From positions 1-27,151 of the IMG/VR virus record IMGVR_UViG_3300020180_000768: a stretch of 27,151 bases of DNA, one strand, 5' to 3'. A program made the position numbers and the translations under genes. This document shows, in pieces, positions 12,543 to 27,151 of this stretch. The DNA comes from a virus. Numbering within the stretch: the first letter of the stretch is position 1; every line of letters begins with the position of its first letter. The notes below the pieces were generated by a model, which searched no databases, was not told where the DNA came from, and saw only the letters and a list, made by a program, of their open reading frames with translations.

Positions 12543-13550
12543 GTGACATTCGCCGAACTTCAAACCGATCTGACGCGGTTGCTGGGAAACGACCTGAACT
12601 ACTATCAGGGCGATCCTGTCCTGGACGCAGCGACAGTAGACTTCGACGTAGTCCGCAAACGATTGTTGAACTGGACGTACCGGACAGTCACTAAACTTTG
12701 CTACATCGTAGAACCGAGCATAACTTTCCAGCCGGTCGCAGAGCAATCGCTCTACACACTGCAAGAACCACCCGGAGTCAACCAAGTCGTCGACATCGGG
12801 GTTGCTCTCAGCGGAACCTACACTTTGACTTACAGTGGGCAGACTACAGGCGCGCTGAACTACAACGCGTCGGCGGCAACGGTACAGAGCGCGCTCGTAG
12901 GTTTGTCCAACATCGGAGTAGGAGAAGCCACAGTGACCGCCGTTGCAGTCGGGTTCAACGTAGCCCTGAGCGGCACGCTCACGCCACCACTCCCGCTCAT
13001 CACGATGACCTCGAGCCTCAGCGGCACGACCACGACTCCAGCGGTCAGGCAAGTCGGATTCGGAAAACGGTGCGTGAAAATTTTCGGAATGTCGCTTTCC
13101 GACGTAGTCGTGCAGAGCGCACACCGACGCGACGGGCTCTACCATAGATCTATGTTCGAGCGTCAGTACCGAGGTTGGAGACAGTCCGATTCGGGGACTC
13201 CGCTCATAGCTGTAGACCGTGGGAACCAAATCCAGCTTTACTACACCCCAGATTCTGCTTATGTGCTGTCGTCAAGCGCGAACAACTTCGCCGAGGCGCA
13301 GATTTTGTACGACGACATGGTCAACGATACAGATTTGCCTGAACTTCCAGAGGAACTCCATGACGGGCTTCCGCTTTTAGCCTACTTCCGCGCCGCTGAC
13401 CCTGTCACCGATGAAGGCGGCGCGATCCGAAGGGCGATGAGCGCCAACTCAAGATGGGGAGCCGAAGTCGAAGAAGTCAGGCGTAACAACAAGAACGCGA
13501 TGACCAGCGCGGACAGTCTGTTCATAAGAGGGCAGAGGTTCAGGTCTTGA
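12543..13550 (+). CDS. head-tail connector (adaptor) protein with an inserted beta domain
   Basis: This is a 335-residue protein starting at GTG 12543. The N-terminal 75 residues (MTFAELQTDLTRLLG, then VVRKRLLNWTYRTVTK) and the C-terminal 90 residues (PELPEELHDGLPLLAYFRAAD, then RWGAEVEEVRRNNK) are helical. They fit the podovirus adaptor family that sits under the portal (T7 gp11 / P22 gp4 type). Between them, at about residues 88-165, lies a separate beta domain with GTYTLTYSGQTTGALNYNAS, then TVQSALVGLSNI. This domain recurs twice in the next gene and is widespread as an insertion in phage and surface proteins. The gene's last bases overlap the TTG start of the large tail protein (TTGA). 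Confidence 0.75.
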   Translation: MTFAELQTDLTRLLGNDLNYYQGDPVLDAATVDFDVVRKRLLNWTYRTVTKLCYIVEPSITFQPVAEQSLYTLQEPPGVNQVVDIGVALSGTYTLTYSGQTTGALNYNASAATVQSALVGLSNIGVGEATVTAVAVGFNVALSGTLTPPLPLITMTSSLSGTTTTPAVRQVGFGKRCVKIFGMSLSDVVVQSAHRRDGLYHRSMFERQYRGWRQSDSGTPLIAVDRGNQIQLYYTPDSAYVLSSSANNFAEAQILYDDMVNDTDLPELPEELHDGLPLLAYFRAADPVTDEGGAIRRAMSANSRWGAEVEEVRRNNKNAMTSADSLFIRGQRFRS

Positions 13551-16500
13551 GCCAGAAAGTCCTGACAAGGCTCGGGCCGTTTCTGGGCCCGCACCTTTCG
13601 ATCGACAAACGGTTCGTCCAACAACCGTATTCAGCGGGGGGGACCAATTGCCGGTACGAGAACGGATCCCTTCGACCTCGCTACGGTTTTCGCAACATAG
13701 TCGGAGCCCAAAGGTACAAGGACACGGAAATGGACGCGCTCAAGCTGTTCCGAAGAGCAGGCGGAGTAGTCAGTGGGGAAGCTTACAGTACCTATGTCAC
13801 AGTCGAGCGTTACGGATCATCGACTTCTAATCTCTGTCGATTGATGACAGTGGACACCACGACCGGAGCCAGAACCAAGGTGCTCCGAACAAAAAAAGTC
13901 AACACGGTGTACGACCTTCACCTTGGCGGCGCGACAGGCGGCACGTTCAACCTGACGTTTGAAGGCCAGGTGCTTTCCGGAGTCGTGTACGACCGGCTTA
14001 GCAATGGCGCTATTAGCCTTGAGACTGACCTTGAAGGTCTTTCAAACCTGGTTCCAGCCGATGTGACGGTCGCCACGATCACTGGCGGACACCGGATCAC
14101 GTTTTCGACCGCGTGGGAAGACATGGAAGTAGCGTTCACGCTCGCTGGGGGAGCCTTGACCGGCACGACGACAACCCCAGTCCTCATAAGGTCCAGGCAT
14201 TCGCACGTCGGTAGTGAAGTCACACAAATACTTCTTGGTGGAGCGACCGCAGGCACCTACACGGTCTCGTTTTATGGTCAAACAACAAGCGCAATTGCGT
14301 TTAATGCCAGTAACTCAACAGTACAAACGGCGCTCTTGGGTTTGAGCAACGTCAATCCTGGAGACGTCACCGTCTCGGATTATGCAAATGGATTCTATTT
14401 GTTTTGGGGCGGTCGGTACTTAGGCGACGACCTCGATGCTGCGGTGATTACGATTGCAGACAGTACGACCGGTGGGGCTGGTGTCACCAGAGCTACAGTT
14501 CTGTCTGGTTCAGAGTCTACTTATGCGATCGACGGAACGAGCGCTGTTCCAATTCTTGCGGATTCGTACTACAGAATCCTTGTTGTCGACGACACTGTCT
14601 ACGGATTCAGCCATGTAGCAGGCGAAGAACTCCCGTCACCGACATCTGAGAACACGCCGCTCTGGAAGTTCACACTGGGCGATCCCTACAGTTTCGTCGC
14701 GCTCAAACAGCCCGTTGCTCCGAATGATGCAAGCGATAAGGCGACAGTCCAATATCGAAGGCAACCAGGATCGACAACACTCGGATACAAGCAATTCAAC
14801 TGGAACGGATTGGCCGACCCAGGCGATTCCACACTTGACGAGACAGTCTTTACGGCGATGGCGACAGTCGGCAGTGTCTCGGCTGCGATCACTGTGTCGG
14901 CTCAAGGGGCCGCTTCTGCGCTCGTACCATTCGCCACGATTTCACCAGGAAACCAGAACCTTCAGTACAGCGACTGCATAAAGTTCCAAATGCGAAAGAA
15001 CGCGGCGGCTTTGGCGTTTGATCTAAGGTCAGTACAAATTTACTTCAAGGACACCAATGGAGTCCGAGTCGATCTGGACACCCGTGTCTCAGGATCGAGC
15101 GCAGACGAAACTGTGAATTTGCTCTACAACGTGTACGCAAGTTTCCCACCGGGAAAGACCCGTGCCGATTGGTCGACCACTAAACATTTCGGGCTTGAGA
15201 TGACGGTGACGACTGGAACCGGAACCATTACCCTTGATCCCGTCACGCTTGGTGGAATGCCTGGACTGTACGTCCCTAATCGGGATTGGCAAATAGGTTA
15301 CTCTTGGAAGGCTACGTTAACGGGGCTGGTATCAGGAGTCGGAGGAGCGATCATCCTACCGCACCTATCCCTTAGAGGGGATATTGCATTTCTAGACTTC
15401 CACGGCGAAGACCCACCGTACATGGGAGTAATCCCTTATCTCACGCTAAAGGGTTCGAGCGAAGCTCAAGTCGATGAAACACAGATCGTAGTCAGAAAAG
15501 AGCGTGCACAAAGAAAAGAGCTTCCAGAAAACCACAAAGATCAGAATTGGGGCCAGTGGAGAATCGTGGACACCGTCACGGAGGCAAACCCGACGACGGG
15601 CTACACTTTCCAGACGGACACGGCCGCTTTTGGGCAACTGGCGGCGTTCACTACGGGAGTTTTCGAGTACGACGACATCATAGGAGCGAGCCAAATCCAC
15701 GGCTATACAGAGTGGTTGTTCCGGAAAAACAAGCAATTCACTGTGCGGGATTCAATTGTCGGCGATCCTTTGAACCTCGTCAAAACCGACAACTCCGACC
15801 TTGACCTGCTTGATCCGCTTGAAGGCGCCAACTGGATACTTTCGTCAGACTTCAAGGACCAGCCGAGAATCTCGCTCGAAGTGCCGGGTGGGAACATCGT
15901 CGTCTGCGACAATGGAGCCTATGCCCAGAGCGGCATGACGCCGCTTTCCAAATCTCCGTTCTCCAGGCTCCCTGGTTCAGTGGGATGCGCGGGAGCAGAC
16001 TCCGTGGTCGTTTGGCGCACCGAAGCGGGAGACCCTGCGGTCTATTACGTCAGCTCGAACGCCGACGCGATCTTCGTCATCCCGTCGTTTGCAGTCGCGG
16101 CAGGCGACAAACAGTTCCAACCGGAAGAACTCACGATACCTCTGCGCGGAGAAGTGAGGGACTTCCTCACCCAAGGGAGCACACTTGTGAACACAGACCG
16201 AATGGCACTCCAGGTAGACCAACGGGGAGACGCGCTCATGGTCGTCTACGTAGACCGAATCCTCATCCTGCGAAGAAAGAGCCTCATCGACGGAAGAAGG
16301 CAGTTCGAGATGTACCGCTACGACCTGTCGAGCATCGGTTCGTCTTGGCTGAAGGCCGACTTTTCCGAAGACCTTGGGCTAAGGGCCATGAGGATAAACG
16401 GAGCGATGGACGAAATCGAGTACGACACGAGCGACAGTTTCGTTCCGATCGATCCAACCTGGCACACCCCGAGCTCGACTTCGGTCGCAAGCGACACTGT

Positions 16501-17092
16501 CACGTTCGACGGCACCGCTGGACACACCGATCCTGCGTGGGCGACCGGATTCGCCATTGTCGCAAGGAAAACGGCAGGAGGGCTCACCGCCAGTTCGGCG
16601 GTCTACACCAACGCGCAAGGGTCGGGAGTCTACAAGTTTTACAACTCGTACACCAACGCGGTGGCAGGGACCGGAACTGGACTGAAGAATTTGACCGCAT
16701 CCATCGGCGAACTTTCCGAAGGCCGGGACGATGGCTTCCGAGCCCTTGGAACGACGGGAAACTACAAAGCCTACTGGCAGTCTCCCGAATTCGACGATGC
16801 CCAGTGGTGGGCGATCAACAGTACCGACACGATTCGGGCGAACCTTGACGATTGCCCGGTGGTGAACTTCTACTGCGACCGGAACGACAAAGCCGGAACG
16901 CGGACGGATGAAGGCGGAACACTCACGACCCCTGTCACGAGAACGACCACCGTCGGGAAGACAAAAGACCGTTGGCCATTATGGGCGCGTCACCGCAGGA
17001 TGCAGGTAGAGATCGTACTTTCAGAGAATTCCAGCGCAGTCCGAGGCCTAGACGTATGGCGGACTCCAGCACAAGCAAGGCTCAACTCATAA
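13547..17092 (+). CDS. large tail protein (tail nozzle / tubular protein B-like)
   Basis: This is an 1181-residue protein from TTG 13547, overlapping the connector stop; AGAGG lies upstream. The N-terminus (VQQPYSAGGTNCRYENGSLRPRYGF is the region at about 25-49, summarised here by PYSAGGTN and LRPRYGF) has the pattern of podovirus tail nozzle proteins, where a Gly-Gly-x-Asn turn precedes an Arg-x-Gly-Phe strand. Two copies of the inserted beta domain follow at about residues 128-210 and 228-315 (GQVLSGVVYD; GQTTSAIAFNAS with TVQTALLGLSNV). The middle and C-terminal parts are long beta-rich segments, and the end contains RHRRMQVEIVLSENS and RGLDVWRTPAQ, like the distal jelly-roll of such proteins. 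It should form the tail tube or tip under the connector. The nozzle call is inferred from position, size and these patterns. Confidence 0.68.
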   Translation: MSQKVLTRLGPFLGPHLSIDKRFVQQPYSAGGTNCRYENGSLRPRYGFRNIVGAQRYKDTEMDALKLFRRAGGVVSGEAYSTYVTVERYGSSTSNLCRLMTVDTTTGARTKVLRTKKVNTVYDLHLGGATGGTFNLTFEGQVLSGVVYDRLSNGAISLETDLEGLSNLVPADVTVATITGGHRITFSTAWEDMEVAFTLAGGALTGTTTTPVLIRSRHSHVGSEVTQILLGGATAGTYTVSFYGQTTSAIAFNASNSTVQTALLGLSNVNPGDVTVSDYANGFYLFWGGRYLGDDLDAAVITIADSTTGGAGVTRATVLSGSESTYAIDGTSAVPILADSYYRILVVDDTVYGFSHVAGEELPSPTSENTPLWKFTLGDPYSFVALKQPVAPNDASDKATVQYRRQPGSTTLGYKQFNWNGLADPGDSTLDETVFTAMATVGSVSAAITVSAQGAASALVPFATISPGNQNLQYSDCIKFQMRKNAAALAFDLRSVQIYFKDTNGVRVDLDTRVSGSSADETVNLLYNVYASFPPGKTRADWSTTKHFGLEMTVTTGTGTITLDPVTLGGMPGLYVPNRDWQIGYSWKATLTGLVSGVGGAIILPHLSLRGDIAFLDFHGEDPPYMGVIPYLTLKGSSEAQVDETQIVVRKERAQRKELPENHKDQNWGQWRIVDTVTEANPTTGYTFQTDTAAFGQLAAFTTGVFEYDDIIGASQIHGYTEWLFRKNKQFTVRDSIVGDPLNLVKTDNSDLDLLDPLEGANWILSSDFKDQPRISLEVPGGNIVVCDNGAYAQSGMTPLSKSPFSRLPGSVGCAGADSVVVWRTEAGDPAVYYVSSNADAIFVIPSFAVAAGDKQFQPEELTIPLRGEVRDFLTQGSTLVNTDRMALQVDQRGDALMVVYVDRILILRRKSLIDGRRQFEMYRYDLSSIGSSWLKADFSEDLGLRAMRINGAMDEIEYDTSDSFVPIDPTWHTPSSTSVASDTVTFDGTAGHTDPAWATGFAIVARKTAGGLTASSAVYTNAQGSGVYKFYNSYTNAVAGTGTGLKNLTASIGELSEGRDDGFRALGTTGNYKAYWQSPEFDDAQWWAINSTDTIRANLDDCPVVNFYCDRNDKAGTRTDEGGTLTTPVTRTTTVGKTKDRWPLWARHRRMQVEIVLSENSSAVRGLDVWRTPAQARLNS

Positions 17093-17095
17093 GGC

Positions 17096-17117
17096 CCATC
17101 CTATCATCCCAGGATGG
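17096..17117 (+). other. 7-bp inverted repeat overlapping the GroES promoter region
   Basis: CCATCCT (17096-17102) and AGGATGG (17111-17117) are perfect inverted repeats around an eight-base loop, four bases after the tail-gene stop. There is no T-run. The right arm ends seven bases before the -10-like element at 17125, so it may be an operator or a weak terminator. Confidence 0.4.
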
Positions 17118-17124
17118 AATATGG

Positions 17125-17130
17125 TACGAT
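17125..17130 (+). promoter_or_regulatory. -10-like element TACGAT for a leaderless GroES-like mRNA
   Basis: TGG-TACGAT ends seven bases before ATG 17138 and resembles the element before 5113. No ribosome site is present between it and the ATG. Confidence 0.5.
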
Positions 17131-17137
17131 TCCCTTG

Positions 17138-17431
17138 ATGACAACACTGGAAGCAGCGAACGACCGACTCATTCTGAAGATGGACGACAAGGAGGAAATC
17201 TCAGCGGGAGGCATCCACCTTGCACAAGACGCCCAAGAAAAACCGCGCAGAGGGACCGTAGTCTCGGTCGGGCCAGGAGTCTTCAACGACAAGGGAGAGA
17301 CCAACCCAATGAGTGCCGTAGTCGGCGACCGCGCCATTGTAAGCCAATGGGCCGGGAACGAGTTCAAGTTTGAAGGACAGGAATACGTCTGCGTCCATAT
17401 CGAAGACGTGATGGCATGGATAAGGGCCTGA
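17138..17431 (+). CDS. groES-like: phage-encoded GroES-like co-chaperonin
   Basis: This is a 97-residue protein, the normal size for Cpn10. ATG 17138 is chosen over an in-frame ATG at 17114 because a -10-like element lies between them and family similarity begins at ANDRLILK. The GroES pattern is clear. The mobile loop has SAGGIHL, where IHL stands for the hydrophobic tripeptide that docks on GroEL, then AQEKPRRGTVVSVGPG, then VVGDRAIVSQWAGNEFKFEG, and a C-terminal EYVCVHIEDVMAWI strand. GroES caps GroEL and helps folding in the host cytoplasm. Phage versions such as T4 gp31 adapt the host chaperonin to fold the capsid protein. It is placed right after the structural genes, with a probable own promoter. 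Confidence 0.9.
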   Translation: MTTLEAANDRLILKMDDKEEISAGGIHLAQDAQEKPRRGTVVSVGPGVFNDKGETNPMSAVVGDRAIVSQWAGNEFKFEGQEYVCVHIEDVMAWIRA

Positions 17432-17714: not shown

Positions 17715-18005
17715 ATGAACGAGCGTGTGTTCACGTCCGAAGGATGCTCGATCTCCGTAGCCTGGAAAGACACCGAAGCATGGGTGGCCATGATGCAAAG
17801 CGACAATCCGCTTGCACTTCTAGGTCTTGCATCTCAGGTCAAATCATTTCTGTTCGATCAGGGAATTAAGCGTATGACCACCTCAGTTAGCGCATCGGAC
17901 GAACGAACGTACAAGCTCGTGAGCGCGTTTGGTTTTGTACCTTGGGAGATCATCATGGTGTTGCCAACTTCAGAATACAGCGGGCCAGGTAGATTGGTAC
18001 CGTAA
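17715..18005 (+). CDS. short GNAT-like protein
   Basis: This 96-residue protein starts at ATG 17715; TAACGT ends seven bases before that ATG and may be another -10-like element. The C-terminal half contains IKRMTTSVSASDERTYKLVS then AFGFVPWEIIMVLP, which is the end of a GNAT acetyltransferase fold: the strand, the helix that follows acetyl-CoA, and the GF strand. The N-terminal part is too short for a full GNAT domain (usually about 140-150 residues), and no Q/R-x-x-G-x-G/A acetyl-CoA loop is visible, so it may be degenerate, minimal, or a structural relative. It overlaps the next gene by one base (TAATG). Confidence 0.6.
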   Translation: MNERVFTSEGCSISVAWKDTEAWVAMMQSDNPLALLGLASQVKSFLFDQGIKRMTTSVSASDERTYKLVSAFGFVPWEIIMVLPTSEYSGPGRLVP

Positions 18006-18754
18006 TGAATGTAGCAATAATTACTTATTGTGAAACATCAGTCGTTCCTCGCCCAGCATCACTGACATTTGAGACCCTACGGGTCGGTTATCCGACTGCG
18101 GCCGTTACCGTTTTCGACAACAGTTCCCATCCGGAGGCGCGTAATGTGTTCAAGAAATTGTCTAACTGCATCGGCGCAGACTACGTGCAGATCGAGCCGG
18201 AACGGCCGCACTACCATATCCTTTGGAGTTTAATCGAGTGCGCAACAGGTCGTCTAGTAATACTTGACCCTGACTTAGTGTTTTGGAAAGATTGCGAATT
18301 GGCAGACTTTGGAGATGCGCTTTTGGCAGGAAGAAGGCTCCCTAAATTCTATTGTCCGCTTACTCATACTCTTACTTCATCTCGAATTCATACGAGCCAC
18401 TTGATCGTTCCTGACTGCCAACTATTAGTTGAGAATGTTCGGACATCTTCGATGGAGTGGCATCCATTTCGTCCGTTCCAATACTATTGTGCACCAACAT
18501 GGAAGCGCGAAGACACCGGCAGCCAATTGTGCAAATTACTTGGCAGAAAGGCAAAACGGTTCGACAATGAATTCCTCGACCGCTATGACCACCTGTTCTG
18601 TGGCACCCACTTCCAACATGTAATGCCATACCTCGAAAAGTCGTCATTGGATGTGTTTGTTGACGGGTATCGCAATTTGGCGTCGAACGATATCTCCGCA
18701 CTTCGCGGAGTCTGGCGAGAGCAACAAAAAGCTCTGCTGGTTTGTAAGCCATAA
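18005..18754 (+). CDS. GT-A-type glycosyltransferase (second, AT-richer)
   Basis: This is a 249-residue protein from ATG 18005. The N-terminal strand NVAIITYCETS (2-12) and VTVFDNSSHPEA (34-45) are typical of GT-A starts. GRLVILDPDLVFW (about 82-94) contains the DxD motif as DPD. The later part has a HYHILWSLIECA helix and a C-terminal region with CGTHFQHVMPYL. The gene has visibly lower GC than the structural genes: 24 of 60 bases at 18001-18060 and 26 of 60 at 18361-18420. This suggests acquisition from another source. The substrate is unknown; virion glycosylation or host-surface change are both possible. It is not closely similar by eye to the glycosyltransferase at 2813. Confidence 0.7.
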   Translation: MNVAIITYCETSVVPRPASLTFETLRVGYPTAAVTVFDNSSHPEARNVFKKLSNCIGADYVQIEPERPHYHILWSLIECATGRLVILDPDLVFWKDCELADFGDALLAGRRLPKFYCPLTHTLTSSRIHTSHLIVPDCQLLVENVRTSSMEWHPFRPFQYYCAPTWKREDTGSQLCKLLGRKAKRFDNEFLDRYDHLFCGTHFQHVMPYLEKSSLDVFVDGYRNLASNDISALRGVWREQQKALLVCKP

Positions 18755-18762: not shown

Positions 18763-19500
18763 ATGCCCATACCCGCAGTAGTAGGAGCAGGAATAATAAC
18801 AGGCGTAGGGGGGCTCCTTGGTGGACTCATCGGGAAAAAGGGTGCGGACCGTCAGGCGAAAGCAGCCGAAGGTATTGCTGCGAACCAGCTGGATTGGGTC
18901 AAGAACCTTTTCGGACAGCGCAAAGGAGACATCGAAGGCGTCCAGAAGTGGGCCGGAGAGCAAGGACTGCTCGATCCAAAAGCTATGTTCGACCGGATGG
19001 ATTCTGCTACGGCAGACTCCAGAGCCCGCGACACGAAGAACCTAGTGGCCGCACTTTTCAAACAGGGCGGATACCGGCCCGGTGAGACAGCGGCGGAACG
19101 AGTCCTTGGGAATTCGGAAGTCGCACACGCCAAAGCCCGCGACCAGGAATATCTGAGTATGTCGGTCGATGCGTTCAGTCGAAGGCTTGCGCTTGCAGGC
19201 GCGCCTTACGAGACTGGACTCATCGGGGGAGTCATCAACGCAGGTACGAACCTCAGCAACATCGCGGCACAGCGAGCCGACAGAGCCCAAAGCGCGGCGT
19301 CAGGGGCGATATCAGGTCTTGCGGGAGCATGGAGCAACTATGAAGCGTGGAGACAAGCACAGAAAGTAGAGAACACGAACCAGACATCGAACGTGCTGAC
19401 GGGCGGAAGCAACGCCAGTGGCGACACTTCTGGCGGAACTCAGCAGATCGGATCAGACGAGTGGGCGAAAGGGTTGTCGAACCTCGGACGGTGGGGATAA
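18763..19500 (+). CDS. internal virion (ejection) protein
   Basis: This is a 245-residue protein from ATG 18763. The N-terminus PAVVGAGIITGVGGLLGGLIG (residues 4-24, given by its ends PAVVGAG and LLGGLIG) is a Gly-rich hydrophobic segment able to insert in a membrane. It is followed by a basic and then helical, Ala-rich body (KAAEGIAANQLDWV, ALFKQGGYRPGET, AQRADRAQSAASGAISGL). The C-terminal 50 residues are Asn/Gly/Thr-rich. This resembles DNA-ejection proteins of podoviruses (T7 gp14 / P22 gp7 type), which leave the virion and build a channel across the host envelope. It is followed directly by the next internal gene with no gap. The role is inferred from the hydrophobic N-terminus, helical body and position before the peptidoglycan hydrolase. 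Confidence 0.62.
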   Translation: MPIPAVVGAGIITGVGGLLGGLIGKKGADRQAKAAEGIAANQLDWVKNLFGQRKGDIEGVQKWAGEQGLLDPKAMFDRMDSATADSRARDTKNLVAALFKQGGYRPGETAAERVLGNSEVAHAKARDQEYLSMSVDAFSRRLALAGAPYETGLIGGVINAGTNLSNIAAQRADRAQSAASGAISGLAGAWSNYEAWRQAQKVENTNQTSNVLTGGSNASGDTSGGTQQIGSDEWAKGLSNLGRWG

Positions 19501-20472
19501 GTGCGGCAGTCGCAAGAGATCGGGCAAGAGCTTGCGGGACTACTACAGACCGTCGTCAACAATTCACCCGGAAAAATGCTCCCGGCGCACAAAAGGTATG
19601 CGCTGTCGCTCATCGCCGATGGCCAGTCCGAGCGGATCATCTCCGACGGCTACAACCGGTCAGCGGCGGAAGGCGTGTCACCGGAGGCCCATTCCGCAAA
19701 CCAGACCGCCGATGCGCTCGCGGCGCAACTCGGCATACAGCCGCCTCCGATGCCTACAGCCCAGCCACAGCAGGCACAACAAGGCCAAGACCAAGGAAGC
19801 TACAACGGCACAGTCGAAGGCCAAAACGCGCAGGGGCCGGGAACTGCGACTCCGGCACAACCGGCAAACTCTGGGACGCCACCGCCCGGAACTCGCTACG
19901 ATCCTGTCACCAGGACATCAATATGGGACCCTAACTATCACGGGCATTACATGGATATGGCTGAGGGAGGGCCAGTCGGCACTCCCGCTATAACCGCACA
20001 GCCGAGTCCGACCACTACCGGAACCCAGAACCAGGACATTGGTGCGCCACCAGTCCAGCAATTCGCGTCACTCGACCAGAAACGCATCGACGAAGGATGG
20101 CAAAAATTCCACACAGCGATGTCTAGGATGCCGACTCCTCCCGATCCTTTCCAAGATGCCGGAAATTGGGCTTACCCATCTCATAGCGATGGCCGTCGCC
20201 GGGATCATCGACCCCCAATCTGCGGCAGTGATCGGCAAGGCGATATTCGAGGCGCCCGTTCTAGCCAAGGGATACATCGACCAACAGAACGACAAGCGAT
20301 ACGCGAGCGATATCCAAATTTGGCAGAACGAGACACTGCGGTACGAGCAAGCCGCGCTCGGAGTGGAGCGGTCGGTGACAGCCCAGAAAAACAACGAACA
20401 AGACGCCTACACGGCCGACTTCAACAGGAAGTCTATACTCTACGGACAAGCCGAAACGCAACAACACCTTAA
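19501..20472 (+). CDS. N-terminal part of internal virion protein; frame changes near 20140
   Basis: This frame opens at GTG 19501, immediately after the previous stop, and closes at 20472 (323 codons). Only about the first 214-220 codons look coding. They consist of a helical N-terminal region (QELAGLLQTVV, HKRYALSLIADG), a Gln/Pro/Gly-rich linker (residues 80-150), and SLDQKRIDEGWQKFHTAMSRMP. After about 20155 the translation becomes Arg-rich and out-of-frame in character, while the +1 frame becomes clearly coding. The natural product is probably a fusion to the next entry (about 771 residues) through a +1 change of frame. A mutation or sequence error cannot be excluded. Confidence 0.6.
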   Translation: MRQSQEIGQELAGLLQTVVNNSPGKMLPAHKRYALSLIADGQSERIISDGYNRSAAEGVSPEAHSANQTADALAAQLGIQPPPMPTAQPQQAQQGQDQGSYNGTVEGQNAQGPGTATPAQPANSGTPPPGTRYDPVTRTSIWDPNYHGHYMDMAEGGPVGTPAITAQPSPTTTGTQNQDIGAPPVQQFASLDQKRIDEGWQKFHTAMSRMPTPPDPFQDAGNWAYPSHSDGRRRDHRPPICGSDRQGDIRGARSSQGIHRPTERQAIRERYPNLAERDTAVRASRARSGAVGDSPEKQRTRRLHGRLQQEVYTLRTSRNATTP

Positions 20473-21817
20473 CGACCGTGAATACCGGGTCGGGCTAAGG
20501 ACGCGACTGATCAAGCTGGACAGCCTAGCGAGCAGTGGCAAACTCTCAGCAGAAGGTTTGGCCCAAGTGAACGATACAAGGAACTACATTAGTTCGGTGC
20601 TAGACTCTGGCCTGCCTGCGTTCGACGCGCACGGACAGCCTACCCAGCCGTTCAAAGAAGCAGAAAAGAGAATGGCCGAAGCCGACTCACGGATAGGGCT
20701 CAATGCGCAACGAGTCAAAAAATTGGCCTCCGCCATCGGACTGGACAAAGAAAAAGCGGAAAGGCTCGACACCCTCTTGCCTCTCGAAGCAGCCAGGATG
20801 GCCGCACAAACCGGACTGCTCAATGCTGACCGTGTCAATAGACTTTACAACGCGGTCGATGCTGCCAGCAAGATTGACTACCGAGAGTACCGCCAAGGGC
20901 TCGAAAAGGACAAGTTTGAACTGGACAAGGTCAAAGTCGGGTTCGAGGAAGTGGGCAAACGGCTCAAGGAGGCTATGTCCAGCCGCGACGCCAACGCGAA
21001 AGCGGCCGCGAAAGCTCAAGAAAGCGCTGACGCGCGTCTGAGAGACTACAAGGGGAAAGACGGGACGATTCCTCCTGGGGACAAGGCGAACGAGTACAAG
21101 GGGTTCGTCTTGGCGGCGAAAGAGGCACAAGCCAAGGTCGAGGCGGCGGCTCCTGCGATAGACGAACTCAACAGGTTGCACTCCAGGCTCAAAGACGGAC
21201 TTGACCTGATCGTTCCGACCGAACCGACATCGAGCGGAACGACCATCGGCAGTGTGTCGAGCATGGCGGCAGGCCAACCGCACGTGTCAGGGTTTATCGA
21301 AGCCTTGAAGAAGAGCGTAGGCAAGCCGTATGTATGGGGAGGAGGCCGGAAGATAGGCGACGATGAAACCGTCGATTGTTCCGGACTGGTCTGCAACGCG
21401 CTTGAGTCGATAGGGCTCAAGGCTCCAGGCTCGACCGCCCAAGAAATGTACAAGAACACGGCAGCAGTAAATCCAGGGGAAATGCAACCCGGAGACCTCC
21501 TGTTCTTTGACTGGAAGAAAGACGGAAAGGTCGACCACGTCACTGTCTACATCGGCAACGACAGGATGATCGGGGCGTCGTCAAAGAGCAAAAAAGTGGA
21601 AGAAGTAAGCGCGCGCGGATATGTCGAAAATGTGCGCCAAGGGCAATTCGTAAAGATTGGACGGATACAGAGCCTCACCCAAGGTGGAGCACCGTCGCCA
21701 TCCTTCACGCCAGGGACAACAAAACGAGTCCCCCGCGGAGCCAAGAAGGTCGTTGGAACAAAACCGCCACCGGGGCGTGAGGCTCACTACGGTTCGCAAG
21801 ACACGGGAGGAAAGTAA
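20156..21817 (+). CDS. helical internal virion protein with C-terminal NlpC/P60 peptidase domain
   Basis: This frame is coding from about 20140 to TAA 21817. ATG 20156 (MPEIGLTH) is given as the first possible internal start, but it has no ribosome site, so synthesis by fusion with the preceding frame is favoured. A hydrophobic segment LIAMAVAGIIDP comes first, then about 350 residues of charged helix. The C-terminal domain (21280-21690) is NlpC/P60: GKPYVWGGG, the catalytic Cys in DCSGLVCNAL (TGT at 21377-21379), GDLLFFDW, and the catalytic His in VDHVTVYIG (CAC at 21536-21538). It would cut peptide bonds in peptidoglycan to let DNA or ejection proteins through. The tail is basic (TKRVPRGAKKVV). 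Confidence 0.85.
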   Translation: MPEIGLTHLIAMAVAGIIDPQSAAVIGKAIFEAPVLAKGYIDQQNDKRYASDIQIWQNETLRYEQAALGVERSVTAQKNNEQDAYTADFNRKSILYGQAETQQHLNDREYRVGLRTRLIKLDSLASSGKLSAEGLAQVNDTRNYISSVLDSGLPAFDAHGQPTQPFKEAEKRMAEADSRIGLNAQRVKKLASAIGLDKEKAERLDTLLPLEAARMAAQTGLLNADRVNRLYNAVDAASKIDYREYRQGLEKDKFELDKVKVGFEEVGKRLKEAMSSRDANAKAAAKAQESADARLRDYKGKDGTIPPGDKANEYKGFVLAAKEAQAKVEAAAPAIDELNRLHSRLKDGLDLIVPTEPTSSGTTIGSVSSMAAGQPHVSGFIEALKKSVGKPYVWGGGRKIGDDETVDCSGLVCNALESIGLKAPGSTAQEMYKNTAAVNPGEMQPGDLLFFDWKKDGKVDHVTVYIGNDRMIGASSKSKKVEEVSARGYVENVRQGQFVKIGRIQSLTQGGAPSPSFTPGTTKRVPRGAKKVVGTKPPPGREAHYGSQDTGGK

Positions 21818-24800
21818 TGCCGGAGCAAGACCCCGGCATCGGGGCGTTCCTCAGTACGCTCGGAGAACAAAAGGAAGGGCCACCGCCAGTCCAGCTTGGC
21901 CAGATCGAAGCGGAGCGACAAAGGGCCAACGCCGAAGTTCTTGTGCCGAGGACCCCGCGCAAGGCACAGCCCGAACCCAAGCCTCGGCGAAAGCCAAGGG
22001 GGGCCACTGCTCCTACGGCTCAAAAGCCTGGGCCAGACTTCAGCACGTTCTTGAGCCAGTTGTCTCCCCAGCAAAACCAGGCACCATCGCCAGTCCAAGC
22101 ACCGATGACCGGGGCCACTGCTCCTACGGCTCAAAAGCCTGGGCCAGACTTCAGCACGTTCTTGAGCCAGTTGTCTCCCCAGCAAAAACAGGCACCATCG
22201 CCAGTCCAAGCACCGATGACCGGGGCCGCGCTTATTCCTATGCCCGACTACGTCCGGAAGTCGATCGACTCAAGGACGGCCCAAGCCAGTGTGCCCAGGG
22301 AACTCCAAGACCCTCGCGCTTGGCCAGAAGACTACAAGCGCAAACTGCTCGATCCGAATTCTATGGATTCAAAGCTCCACAAATACGACACAGAAAAGTA
22401 CGGAATGCCGACTTTCGGATACTTGAGCGACCCACAACGGGACAGGTACAAGCGGCAGATGGAACTCACCGCAAAACCGGGCAACGTCTACTCGGAGGCC
22501 AAGGCTATAGACAGCGCGTTCACAGGGTTCTCAGGCGAATCGTTCCTCAATCCAGGATCAAGACAAGGGCTACCGCCAGACGTGCGGCAAGCCGCCATTG
22601 GATACATGTGGCTAAAGTTCGGACTCAAGTCTGACGGCGGCAATGTTCCACCTGGCACCGGGGCGGCGCTTGGCAAGAAACTGAGCGACCCGAGTTCGTG
22701 GCCAGCGTTCAAGACCGAAGTCGAGCGCATGAAGTCAGAGCGCGAGGAACTGGAAAAAAGACCAGAGCTACACTTCCTTATTCCCTCTGAGCGTCGCATG
22801 ACCGTGACGATGCGCCTGCAACAGGACCCCACGACGATCCAGGGAGCTATGGCGCTCTACGATTTGGCGAACGGTAGAAACCCCACGTTCGGGTACAACG
22901 AATCGGCAGACCGCCGCGCGTACCGGCTGAACCTGCATTCCAAGATGGACGAGTCTGGAAGCATCCCGCCAGGATATGTCGCAGGCCACACTCAGAACGA
23001 GGCTATGTCCAAAGGCCGTTCGATGGAAGACGTCAACGATGCAGCCGAGCGAGTCGGGCTTCCTGGGACAAGGACTCAAACGGAAGCCCCGTTCGCCGAG
23101 GACGGTAAGTGGCGTGTCCGTGGTACTGACGGAGCCGTCCGTGACCAAGGGCCGAGGAAGCACTATAGCCCGCTTGAGCTCGTGCAAGGACTAGGTTCGC
23201 TCGCGTCTCTTTCTGTCAAGACCGCTGCGCGCATGGGCCTCGTGGGCATAGCCCCACAAGAGGAACTTGCGACTCACGGGGCGACTCCGTTCGCGTCAGA
23301 AGAGCAGTTCAACAAGGGCTGGCAAGAGTCGGTGACCGGAACGCTTTCAGATACCGTAGCGGAGGTAGTGCCTTACGCAATTCCATATTTAGGGCCACTT
23401 GCAGGCGTACAGGCCACTTTGCAACAAGCCATCGACGGTGGTTTGCCAGCAATCTGGGAAGGCACCGGCGTTCCCGCCGCGCTCGCCACTTTCCACAACC
23501 CGAATTCCACATGGCAAGAGCGCACTCACGCATCGGTGCCACTGCTCATCGCCGGGCTGATGTTGTGGCACGGCACAAAGGCGATAAAGAAGGTATTGCC
23601 GGTCAAGCTCCCTGTCGATGGGTTGCGCCAAGAGTGGCTCGCGATGCCCCCAGAGGTACTGTACTATTCAAAGCGGATTAGGCAAGAAATCCTCAGCACC
23701 TTGCACGAATCTGGCGCGACCGATCCCGCGAAACTCGAAGACCATGCGACGTCAGGAGCGACCATGATGACAAGGGCCGCACTGAACATCGAAAAAGACG
23801 GTGGCCGACCAGCCGCAGAATCTCTGGCGAACGTCAGGATCGAACCCGATGGGACGCTCTCCGTGCCTGACGACATCGCCGTAGAACTGAACAAAGTGTC
23901 GGCGACTTTGGACAAAGAAGCCGAGATCGTCAGCGAAAACCCGCCTGCGCCAACTGGGCCGAAGCCCGCCGAAGGAGGCGGGACCCATCTTGGCGAGACC
24001 CACTATTGGACAACCAACCACGGAAAACAAACTGCCAGGGATGAAATTTGGCCAATCAGTAGATTGAAACCTAGCCACAGCTACGTCACGTTCGATCCAA
24101 TTAAGGAGTTCCCGGCAGACCTCCAGCCTAGAAGTCGCGACCGCCAATCGCCGAAGATGCAAATTGAGGGCATCGCAAGAAACTTCGACAAAGACAGAGC
24201 GTTGGACGAGTTCAGAAACATGACTGACGGCACACCGATCGTAATGCCGGACGGGACTGTCATCTCTGGCAACGGGCGGACAATGGCGATGCAGCTGCTC
24301 GCCGACGGTCACGGAAACCAGGCTGAATGGGCACAGTACCAACGAACGTTACGGAACTTACTTGGACTCCCCCCGACCGATACAGGCGTGTACGTCCGAG
24401 TCAGAGTGGCCGACGTAGACCATGCAACCGCGAAGATGCTTGCAGAGGAAGGGAACAAATCTCCCGCCGCCGCGATGGGGCAAGTCGAGACGGCCAAGTC
24501 CGACGCAGGGAAGTTGCCGGAAAATTTCTGGCAATCCTTCAATCCTGTCGGTCAATCGTTCGACCGCTCGGTCAACTCCCCTCAGAACAGAGGTCTAGTA
24601 AATAGGTTCATCAACCAATTCCCCGAATCCGAACTATCCGGACTCCTGGCCGCTGACGGAAGCGTGGCCGTCGAAGGGCTCATGCGCTTGAAACGCGCGG
24701 CATTAATCGACCTTCTAGGAGAAAAAGGAGGACCACTCGCAGAAAGGATTTTCGAGTCCAGCGAAGAATCTGCAAGACTTACGCAAGGTTTGTTCCAGGC

Positions 24801-27151
24801 CATGCCCGACTTGCTCAAGAACAAGAGCCCTGAACTGTCCGACGCGCTCAACGCTATCTTCGACGAGTACACAAGGTTCCAGGAATTCCAGGACTCCCAC
24901 CGCTGGACATGGGAAGAGTTCAAGTCCCAAGGGCAACTCCACTCGTTGCCCCAAGACCTTGAGGACGCTTTCCACGCGCTCGGAGACGCCGTGACTACAG
25001 GCGGTTCCGGACAGAAGGTCGGCGAAGTCTTGCGCGAAATCGTCTCGTCAGGAAAGTTCAGAGACATTGCGGCAAAGCTGAGCGGTCAAGACAATCTGTT
25101 CAGCAAGACGACAAAAAAACCGTACATCGTCGCCCGGAACATGCAACCGAGTTTTGGGAAAGCTGTCGAAAACAATGGTGGAACCAGCCTAGGGGAAGGC
25201 TACTACGCCCTGCGGAACGATGCTAACGGAAGGGCCGTCATCGAGCAGATGGGTCTACAGGTAGACCGTCCGCGCACCAATGACTACAACAGGCGGTATG
25301 CAGACCAGCCCGGAATGTTCGATGAAGAACAAGCTTCGCCGACTCCGGTCGAGCCGGAGCCCACGACAGGCAGGTTGTTCAGCAAGTCGAAAAGCGAAGA
25401 AACGTCCACGGCAGGAGTGTCCGAACTCGGGCGCATCGAATTCGACGCAGACGGGAAGTCCGCGATCATCAAACTCGGGCCAGGAGCGACCATCGCAGAG
25501 GTCGTGCATGAAGCGAGCCACTACTTGCGCCGCACACTTTCGCCAGAGACGACGGCTCAAGTCGAACTGGCGATTGGCGTGGAAAAGGGAAAGTGGTCGG
25601 TCGCAAACGAGGAGCGGTTCGCCAGATCGTTCGAGAAATATCTGACAGAGCAAGCGTCGATTCCAGGACTCGATCCGGTCATGGCCCAATTGGCGCTTGC
25701 GGTGAGGGACGTTTACGCCACACGGCCCGGTGGTATCGCAGGTCAATCCGCTCCACACATCGGAAAAGGAAAGCTAGAGGTTCCCGCTTCGCTAAAGGCA
25801 GTGTTCGACTCGTTCACCACAAACCCGAGCAAGTGGCCAGGAATGGCCCCAGCCCCCGCGCCTGAGCAAACGGAAAATCCTGCCGACACTGTCGGGCCAC
25901 TCGCGCCAGAACCACCAGTCCAGAGTGTGGCTGAGGCGAAAGGGGAGACCGCACCAACCCCAAAGACAGGGGAGGACGCACAGACTGTTCCACGTGGAAC
26001 AACGGGTGCAGAAGCAGCCCCTGTTGCCAAACCGAGTACAGGTGTCTTCAAAAACACTATATACTTTGATTCAAGTACAAGTCTTTATGAAGCGCGCAGG
26101 AACGGAGACCTTAAAGAAGGAGCACTTATCGCACACCCGGCAGATGAATCCGGTGGTTTCTATTATTTTGGAGTTGAAAAAGGGAGGCCAGGTATGTATG
26201 ACAAGCTTGTTCCTCTGCATGACAGAGATGCACTTGCAAAGTGGCAGTTTCATGTAACCGAGATAGAAAGAAGCAATACACCAGATGGCATTAGAGAAGA
26301 GATTGCTGCGTTACAGGAAGAGCTTAAATATGAAGACCGTGAGGGAAAGGCAGACATCAGGGTAAAGATTGCCGCTCAAAAGAAACGGTTGCTGGCTCAT
26401 GGCGATGCTGCCGAAACCGAGAAACCGTCTCCGTTGCAGGACACTCAAGACAAGATTGATGACATTCAAGACAATATTGCTGAGTTAAAGGAAGCGCTTG
26501 AAAATGAAACCGAACCTGAGCATAAGGCAGACATCAGGAAAGAGATTGCCGTTCTAAAGGAACGAGAGAAAGTCCTAAAGGAACGAGAGAAAGTCCTCAA
26601 GAAAGAGATTAAAACCAAGAAACCGACGGACAAGACCGTCACCGATCCAGAGAGCGCGAAACCAGAGCGAACGCCGAGAGGGAAAAAGCCAGCGGAGCCA
26701 GTAGGAAAGACCGTCACCGATCCAGAGAGCGCGAAACCAGAGCGAACGCCGAAAGGGAAAAAGCCAGCGGAGCCAGTAGGAAAGACCGTCACCGACCCAG
26801 AGAGCGCGAAGAAATCGCTTGAAACAAAAGACATCACGACTGAAACTGCCGAAAACGGGACGCACACGCTACAGTTCAAAGACTATAACATCGCGCTGAA
26901 CCTTGACGACGCCGCGCTCGTTCGCTATGCCCAGAAGATCGCAGGTGAATACCCGTCCAGTTTCGATTCAGGAATAGCGATACCAAAGCGAACGCCGAAA
27001 GGGAAAAAGCCAGCGGATCCAGACGCTCTTTCCTCCAAGTTCACAGATTATGCAGACTTTGTCAGGGATTCACTCACAGCTCATGCAGACGATGTCAGGG
27101 CTTCACGCGACAAGCTGCGCAACTTCTTCATCGAAGACATGACCATCCTGT
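21817..27151 (+). CDS. giant polyvalent protein, ddrB-like ParB and zincin domains (3' end outside window)
   Basis: One frame stays open from ATG 21817 to the window edge, 1778 full codons with no stop. The start overlaps the previous stop (TAATG) and has a strong GGAGGAAA site. Order: Pro/Gln-rich start with a 37-residue duplication (62-135); unknown helical region; hydrophobic segments near 516-533 and 573-585. About 745-970 is a ddrB-like ParB domain with GTPIVMPDGTVISGNGRTMA (805-824). An HExxH zincin follows, VVHEASHYLRR (His1231, Glu1232, His1235), with EERFARSFEKYL giving the third ligand (Glu1266 or Glu1273). After about 1420 come an unknown AT-richer domain, coiled coil and Lys/Pro/Glu repeats. 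Such domain mixes define phage polyvalent proteins, thought to be packaged and injected to counter host defence. The function here is inferred. Confidence 0.85.
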   Translation, partial: MPEQDPGIGAFLSTLGEQKEGPPPVQLGQIEAERQRANAEVLVPRTPRKAQPEPKPRRKPRGATAPTAQKPGPDFSTFLSQLSPQQNQAPSPVQAPMTGATAPTAQKPGPDFSTFLSQLSPQQKQAPSPVQAPMTGAALIPMPDYVRKSIDSRTAQASVPRELQDPRAWPEDYKRKLLDPNSMDSKLHKYDTEKYGMPTFGYLSDPQRDRYKRQMELTAKPGNVYSEAKAIDSAFTGFSGESFLNPGSRQGLPPDVRQAAIGYMWLKFGLKSDGGNVPPGTGAALGKKLSDPSSWPAFKTEVERMKSEREELEKRPELHFLIPSERRMTVTMRLQQDPTTIQGAMALYDLANGRNPTFGYNESADRRAYRLNLHSKMDESGSIPPGYVAGHTQNEAMSKGRSMEDVNDAAERVGLPGTRTQTEAPFAEDGKWRVRGTDGAVRDQGPRKHYSPLELVQGLGSLASLSVKTAARMGLVGIAPQEELATHGATPFASEEQFNKGWQESVTGTLSDTVAEVVPYAIPYLGPLAGVQATLQQAIDGGLPAIWEGTGVPAALATFHNPNSTWQERTHASVPLLIAGLMLWHGTKAIKKVLPVKLPVDGLRQEWLAMPPEVLYYSKRIRQEILSTLHESGATDPAKLEDHATSGATMMTRAALNIEKDGGRPAAESLANVRIEPDGTLSVPDDIAVELNKVSATLDKEAEIVSENPPAPTGPKPAEGGGTHLGETHYWTTNHGKQTARDEIWPISRLKPSHSYVTFDPIKEFPADLQPRSRDRQSPKMQIEGIARNFDKDRALDEFRNMTDGTPIVMPDGTVISGNGRTMAMQLLADGHGNQAEWAQYQRTLRNLLGLPPTDTGVYVRVRVADVDHATAKMLAEEGNKSPAAAMGQVETAKSDAGKLPENFWQSFNPVGQSFDRSVNSPQNRGLVNRFINQFPESELSGLLAADGSVAVEGLMRLKRAALIDLLGEKGGPLAERIFESSEESARLTQGLFQAMPDLLKNKSPELSDALNAIFDEYTRFQEFQDSHRWTWEEFKSQGQLHSLPQDLEDAFHALGDAVTTGGSGQKVGEVLREIVSSGKFRDIAAKLSGQDNLFSKTTKKPYIVARNMQPSFGKAVENNGGTSLGEGYYALRNDANGRAVIEQMGLQVDRPRTNDYNRRYADQPGMFDEEQASPTPVEPEPTTGRLFSKSKSEETSTAGVSELGRIEFDADGKSAIIKLGPGATIAEVVHEASHYLRRTLSPETTAQVELAIGVEKGKWSVANEERFARSFEKYLTEQASIPGLDPVMAQLALAVRDVYATRPGGIAGQSAPHIGKGKLEVPASLKAVFDSFTTNPSKWPGMAPAPAPEQTENPADTVGPLAPEPPVQSVAEAKGETAPTPKTGEDAQTVPRGTTGAEAAPVAKPSTGVFKNTIYFDSSTSLYEARRNGDLKEGALIAHPADESGGFYYFGVEKGRPGMYDKLVPLHDRDALAKWQFHVTEIERSNTPDGIREEIAALQEELKYEDREGKADIRVKIAAQKKRLLAHGDAAETEKPSPLQDTQDKIDDIQDNIAELKEALENETEPEHKADIRKEIAVLKEREKVLKEREKVLKKEIKTKKPTDKTVTDPESAKPERTPRGKKPAEPVGKTVTDPESAKPERTPKGKKPAEPVGKTVTDPESAKKSLETKDITTETAENGTHTLQFKDYNIALNLDDAALVRYAQKIAGEYPSSFDSGIAIPKRTPKGKKPADPDALSSKFTDYADFVRDSLTAHADDVRASRDKLRNFFIEDMTIL
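22001..22222 (+). repeat. 111-bp tandem duplication (2 copies) in the giant gene
   Basis: Two adjacent 111-base units (37 codons, in frame) encode ATAPTAQKPGPDFSTFLSQL and the following Ser/Pro/Gln stretch. By eye they differ at one base (AAC to AAA, Asn to Lys), so the duplication is recent. Confidence 0.9.
26557..26598 (+). repeat. 21-bp tandem repeat encoding coiled-coil heptads
   Basis: Two 21-base units, differing only at the last base, encode KEREKVL twice, a perfect heptad. This extends a helical region with related segments at 26290-26400 and 26455-26555 (ADIRVKIAAQKK; ADIRKEIAVLKE). Confidence 0.8.
26632..26856 (+). repeat. 75-bp tandem repeats encoding Lys/Pro/Glu-rich linker
   Basis: Units begin with AAG ACC GTC ACC at 26632, 26707 and 26782 (25 codons each: KTVTDPESAKPERTP then GKKPAEPVG). 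The third is only about 30 bases faithful. A further fragment (KRTPKGKKPAD) lies at 26985-27020, separated by about 130 bases of different sequence. Confidence 0.85.

Follow-up and report, generated by a model that had tools for sequence, protein, structure and literature searches.

A divergent, incomplete giant protein of probable polyvalent class, with a DdrB-like ParB domain and a predicted zincin domain, at the edge of a virus record

What does a very large gene that is left open by the end of a virus record encode, and does its product belong with the polyvalent proteins, the class defined by Iyer et al. (2017; PMC5512222)? The window, i.e. the whole stretch of DNA analysed here, is an entire IMG/VR record of 27,151 bases, and the 3' end of the gene lies outside it. 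An earlier note, made from the letters alone, had proposed a polyvalent protein of more than 1778 residues with a ddrB-like ParB domain, an HExxH zincin-type domain and a coiled-coil and repeat tail, encoded beside internal virion and peptidoglycan hydrolase genes. Independent searches backed the domain calls, the class and the setting, and we consider it likely that the gene encodes a phage polyvalent protein that is very large and late-expressed, probably enters the virion and leaves it with the DNA, and has a DdrB-type ParB domain and a zincin of the BPP-1 clade.

A single open frame with long unmatched stretches

The gene and the parts of its product are as follows:
21817..27151, plus strand: giant gene of the probable polyvalent protein, 1778 codons or more, truncated at its 3' end by the record edge
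21817..22221, plus strand: proline-rich low-complexity N-terminus, residues 1-135 (TRF, motif listing)
22222..23928, plus strand: residues 136-704, with neither homologue nor fold detectable
23929..25065, plus strand: extended conserved ddrB region, residues 705-1083
24043..24402, plus strand: DdrB-like ParB core, residues 743-862 (Pfam, alignments)
25417..25725, plus strand: predicted zincin-like metallopeptidase domain, residues 1201-1303 (profiles, shuffles, phmmer, invariant columns, local model)
25867..26616, plus strand: segment of low third-position G+C, residues 1351-1600, without homologue
26293..26652, plus strand: charged helical, coiled-coil-like segment, residues 1493-1612 (model helices, chance-level SMC-like matches)
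26632..26810, plus strand: 75-bp tandem repeat, KTVTDPESAKPERTPxGKKPAEPVG (TRF, 2.4 copies, 98% match)

The frame (21817-27150, plus strand) opens with an ATG and runs for 1778 codons without a stop to the 3' edge of the record, as the earlier note had stated; the probability of an open frame this long arising by chance at 56% G+C is about 10^-29.5. The ATG at 21817 overlaps the stop of the upstream gene, and just 5' of it lies the Shine-Dalgarno-like GGGAGGAAAGTA, a good ribosome-binding site. Third-codon-position G+C stays at 0.63-0.68 until about residue 1350, and because of this uniformity we see no sign of the frame break that would have made the segments separate genes. Beyond that point, third-position G+C falls to 0.34-0.50 in residues 1351-1600, compared with 0.58-0.73 in most other genes, with a minimum of 0.34 at residues 1401-1500. 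No tRNAs or Rfam families were found in the window.

Most of residues 1-700 are without match in the searches run, as are residues 1340-1778 throughout. The N-terminal 135 residues hold three short F-L-S-x-L-like motifs (GIGAFLSTL once, PDFSTFLSQL twice), and a near-identical 111-bp tandem repeat spans 22000-22227 (TRF; 2.1 copies, 99% match). For residues 136-728 a tblastn search of phages gave no match even at E<=1, residues 136-704 have no PHROG match, and a structure model of residues 136-636 was too poor for use (pLDDT 38.8). Towards the C-terminus, a tblastn search of phages with residues 1395-1528 found no match even at E=1. The coiled-coil and repeat tail reported earlier is real as a charged helical segment, modelled as helices with pLDDT above 90 until about residue 1527, followed by the C-terminal repeats detected by TRF; SMC-like models matched residues 1493-1612 at chance level only. 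The unmatched N-terminal half, together with the low-G+C C-terminal stretch with its charged helix and 75-bp repeats, is particular to the window protein.

These same features could mean that the frame owes its length to misassembly, with the 111-bp and 75-bp tandem repeats and the odd segment 1351-1600 linking stretches that lie apart in the phage. The 98-99% identity of the repeats within the gene and the fall of third-position G+C to 0.34 speak for such a join, yet the frame stays open across both repeats and across the low-G+C segment, and the ParB and zincin domains both lie N-terminal to the odd segment, inside one compositionally uniform stretch. We regard an assembly product as very improbable.

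The DdrB-like ParB domain

The ParB domain named in the earlier note was recovered by profile search, residues 743-862 matching PF18763 at E=1.9e-18 with 67.2 bits against a curated cutoff of 27.6, while phrog_5143 covers residues 764-961 (E=2.4e-25). The conserved region extends to residues 705-1083, including a helical part C-terminal to the ParB core; a ddrB profile scores 297 bits here, a figure biased towards the window sequence, which is one row in that profile. A tblastn search of 50,697 phage records returned 31 relatives, including the DdrB proteins of P1, P7 and D6 and proteins of the epsilon15-type phages Piluca and TPWB-05, with every match confined to the surroundings of the ParB domain.

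We aligned 171 ParB sequences collected from contigs of viruses and bacteria. Both QPRxR and GNGR, essentially invariant in this alignment, are retained in the window protein at residues 770-774 and 818-821 respectively, including the invariant R772, R774 and R821, the last being the pocket arginine of GNGR. Other near-invariant columns are changed: W838, the sole tryptophan among the 171 sequences, replaces a tyrosine found in 169 of them, I816 replaces a glutamate (162 of 171) and S773 an aspartate (154 of 171). A tyrosine is described as conserved within the extra helix of this family (PMC5512222); the two tyrosine columns in that stretch correspond to A829 and W838, with a tyrosine at 841. 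Judged from its sequence, the domain is a genuine but divergent ParB, predicted to carry out nucleotide-dependent DNA nicking or nucleotide hydrolysis, in line with the NTP-regulated nuclease proposed for the ParB domain of polyvalent proteins (PMC5512222). Because near-invariant columns are changed (W838, I816, S773), this activity may differ or be lost, and if the substitutions abolish it, that would help to separate a structural from an enzymatic role.

Among bacteria, a genome scan placed the best DdrB-like ParB matches in Chloroflexota contigs (36-37% identity). The proteins on the contigs nearest to the window ParB (L179, L180, L182, L200; 34-37% identity) are 640-680 residues long and come from Chloroplocales-type Chloroflexota genomes. 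Outside ParB they have nothing in common with the window protein, and other window genes are unmatched there; since the likeness is limited to ParB, we infer no host from it.

The zincin-like domain

About 410 residues C-terminal of the ParB domain, the HExxH motif takes the form HEASH at residues 1231-1235 (25507-25521; H1231, E1232, H1235), and downstream of it lies the block EERFARSFEKYL, which contains E1266 and E1273. The zincin-type domain that the earlier note had assigned to this motif is not called in the window protein by Pfam, NCBIfam or PADLOC, and searches of PDB sequences found nothing relevant. An HExxH beyond ParB is present in P1 DdrB and in many phage giants. Starting from L040, one of these giants, we traced the clade to Bbp10 of phage BPP-1 and other podovirus giants; it is very widespread in IMG/VR. 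A small profile built for the purpose is thus enough to detect a very common zincin that stock libraries miss in this protein.

A first profile, in which several HExxH clades were pooled, left the window score unseparated from shuffles, and the profile was rebuilt from one clade, which did separate them. With 30 non-redundant members, the window excluded, the single-clade profile gives the window protein 18.9 bits; the highest score was 6.1 among 2000 plain shuffles and 12.5 among another 2000 into which HEASH had been planted. In the first single-clade profile the bulk of the local alignment is supplied by the EERFARSFEKYL block, at its expected place. In a phmmer search made without purpose-built profiles, residues 1195-1345 match the giant protein of Leptolyngbya phage Lbo-JY46 (E=3.7e-4 in 11,250 ORFs). 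All 10 invariant columns of a 29-sequence alignment are retained, among them HE..H, E-FA--FE and Y, including E1266 and E1273; the match to any single relative is weak, at 24% identity (pairwise E=2e-4). The structure model shows two strands, where a zincin fold would have a sheet of three, leading into the HExxH helix and then a helix with E1266 and E1273 (pLDDT 78-89). Fold searches of the PDB with the model of residues 1085-1535 returned no zincin and no significant match, and the results of a second such search were taken up by the helical segment at residues 1487-1535; among viral structures, Foldseek matches were weak, the best being polyvalent-type proteins (E=8e-3 and 0.13).

The alternative at this point is that the gene is real, ParB is its sole known domain and the HExxH arose by chance. 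The silence of the stock libraries and of the PDB fold searches fits such an accident, as does the one shuffle in 2000 that reached 12.5 bits once HEASH was planted, but the gap between 18.9 and 6.1 bits, the phmmer match, the second conserved block where it is expected and the strand-strand-helix-helix order of the model all argue against it, and we consider it very improbable. The zincin assignment is supported by the sequence comparisons and the local model, and the zincin fold stays predicted because the PDB fold searches returned no zincins.

Known giants, the genomic slot and the probable role

Two of the upstream features are as follows:
18763..19500, plus strand: small protein in the position of an internal virion protein (assigned from position and sequence alone)
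20156..21817, plus strand: NlpC/P60-domain structural peptidoglycan hydrolase (Pfam PF00877, E=1.5e-20; PHROG)

The hydrolase matches PHROG tail proteins with lysin activity, and the small protein has no family match in Pfam or PHROG. Further upstream are a large terminase, tail-like proteins, GroES and a capsid-family protein whose score is below the family cutoff, so that the giant gene sits among late, virion-protein genes (terminase, capsid-like, tail-like, NlpC/P60 hydrolase).

The ddrB-type ParB and the zincin are unrelated in activity and share one chain, and a combination of at least two such domains is a mark of polyvalent proteins (PMC5512222). The earlier note had thought the architecture worth describing; it is not new, since ParB followed by zincin is already known from P1 DdrB and at least four other groups. 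ParB and a BPP-1-clade zincin also share one polypeptide in ctCJ8213, the L040 group, L130, L085 and L250, and occur in the reverse order in L187, L188 and L207. Of the 65 ORFs with ParB that reach 1200 residues, 12, the window's among them, score with this zincin profile, and an HExxH of some kind is present in 30.

P1 DdrB (995 aa) resembles the window protein in having a DdrB-type ParB and then an HExxH zincin in one polypeptide, encoded by a late virion gene. It differs in being half as long, in belonging to a myovirus darA operon, and in a ParB domain almost at its start (GNGR at 118, HELGH at 872), with a wider spacing between ParB and zincin; identity is about 25%, in the ParB region only. 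BPP-1 Bbp10 and its relatives (phrog_9880; Pseudomonas AF gp16, Xanthomonas CP2 ORF24, Caulobacter Jess A, Cobetia Carin1) share the zincin clade, the slot after a structural hydrolase and a large size (2000-3200 aa). In contrast to the window protein, the four relatives scanned with Pfam carry an N-terminal LPD22 domain and no ddrB-ParB, and the ParB profile matched none of a wider set; the approximately 1250 residues beyond the zincin in this family are not visibly common to the window protein, which has no LPD22 by Pfam and whose match to phrog_9880 is limited to 18 residues at E=0.42. The annotated order in Pseudomonas AF is internal virion proteins A and B, structural lysozyme, giant, then holins and tail spike; in Carin1 and ctQRb9 a lysozyme gene likewise precedes the giant gene, and BPP-1, CP2 and Jess A have a gene pair that matches in layout but is unannotated.

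The giant of podovirus ctCJ8213 (2476 aa, MW202738) and the IMG/VR proteins L040 and L130 have a ddrB-ParB and then a BPP-1-clade zincin, and in ctCJ8213 a single gene separates the giant gene from the internal virion protein genes that precede it. Their ParB identity to the window protein is about 23-33%, and no common N- or C-terminal regions were found. The gp16-like proteins of Piluca and TPWB-05 (949-956 aa), whose genes follow an internal or tail-tubular protein gene, rank with the top-scoring tblastn matches of the window ParB (E about 1e-18, 31-33% identity), but they have no HExxH motif and a different N-terminal half.

The window protein is a divergent, incomplete member of a class of proteins described in many phages. 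Packaging is argued by analogy only, because no close relative was found in IMG/VR scans with the giant protein, large terminase, hydrolase and capsid protein or by megablast against phages; the tail-tube-like protein has one phage match, over 7% of its length. P1 DdrB was found in virions (39 unique peptides; PMC9024508), the 51 unique peptides of JC1 gp69 (4515 aa) are direct evidence of packaging (PMC9144972), and the P1 Dar proteins are reportedly co-ejected with DNA (PMC12810830). By this analogy the window protein most likely belongs to the virion and is ejected together with the genome, and it possibly processes itself, a peptidase having been proposed to process polyvalent proteins (PMC5512222). 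The structural hydrolase from the upstream gene would open the wall, the giant protein would pass the portal with or ahead of the genome, the zincin peptidase might cleave the polypeptide into working parts, in the head or after entry, and the ParB part might act on DNA or nucleotides early in infection. Polyvalent proteins have in general been proposed to disarm defences, a role which the earlier note took up and which the window protein may share.

The main rival to the polyvalent reading, possible though rather unlikely in our judgement, is a protein that is mainly structural, an ejection-channel or core protein like gp16 of T7 or P22, which are large, helical and needed for DNA passage; the ParB and zincin domains would then be inactive passengers or would serve assembly only, in head-maturation processing or in recruiting internal proteins. 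The adjoining structural hydrolase gene, the lack of an enzyme match over the greater part of the protein, the three ParB substitutions and the reported role of P1 DdrB in aiding the addition of DarB to the capsid (PMC9024508) are consistent with this. Against it, the HExxH with its downstream glutamates and the QPRxR and GNGR of ParB are all retained, which would be odd had both domains decayed.

Returning to the polyvalent reading, the window adds to the class a very divergent example without close relative in the collections searched, a modest advance as discovery. It is conceivable, although we think it doubtful, that the approximately 560 unmatched residues before ParB and the segment 1351-1600, the latter recently acquired, hold effector domains new to polyvalent proteins and, with the altered ParB pocket (W838, I816, S773), mark a new polyvalent subtype.

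Several other genes of the window deserve mention. The reading frame shifts near 20150, where the ORF at 19501-20472 is sensible until MPTPPDPF and noise-like after, and the next frame (20039/20156-21817) begins KMPEIGLTHLIAMA; this is either one frameshifted gene, through sequence error or in reality, or two genes, the second beginning at ATG 20156 and lacking a clear ribosome-binding site. The phage-borne GroES/Cpn10 co-chaperonin (17114-17431; PF00166, E=3.6e-24) lies between the tail and internal-virion genes. At 18005-18754, a 249-residue protein (RPASLTFETLRVGYPTAAVTVFDNSSH...) looks glycosyltransferase-like by eye, has no Pfam or PHROG match and has a third-position G+C of 0.48, below its neighbours. 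Both 12543-13550 and 13547-17092 contain TGTYTVSFYGQTTxAIxxNAS-like stretches that match major-tail and tail-sheath PHROGs; these two adjoining tail genes seem to have a repeated domain in common. Minus-strand ORFs at 134-727 and 821-1750 lie over an array of 18-bp repeats, while the remaining likely genes of the window read from the plus strand; the ORF at 821-1750 encodes about 35 copies of an SGGYID-like hexapeptide, a possible beta-helix.
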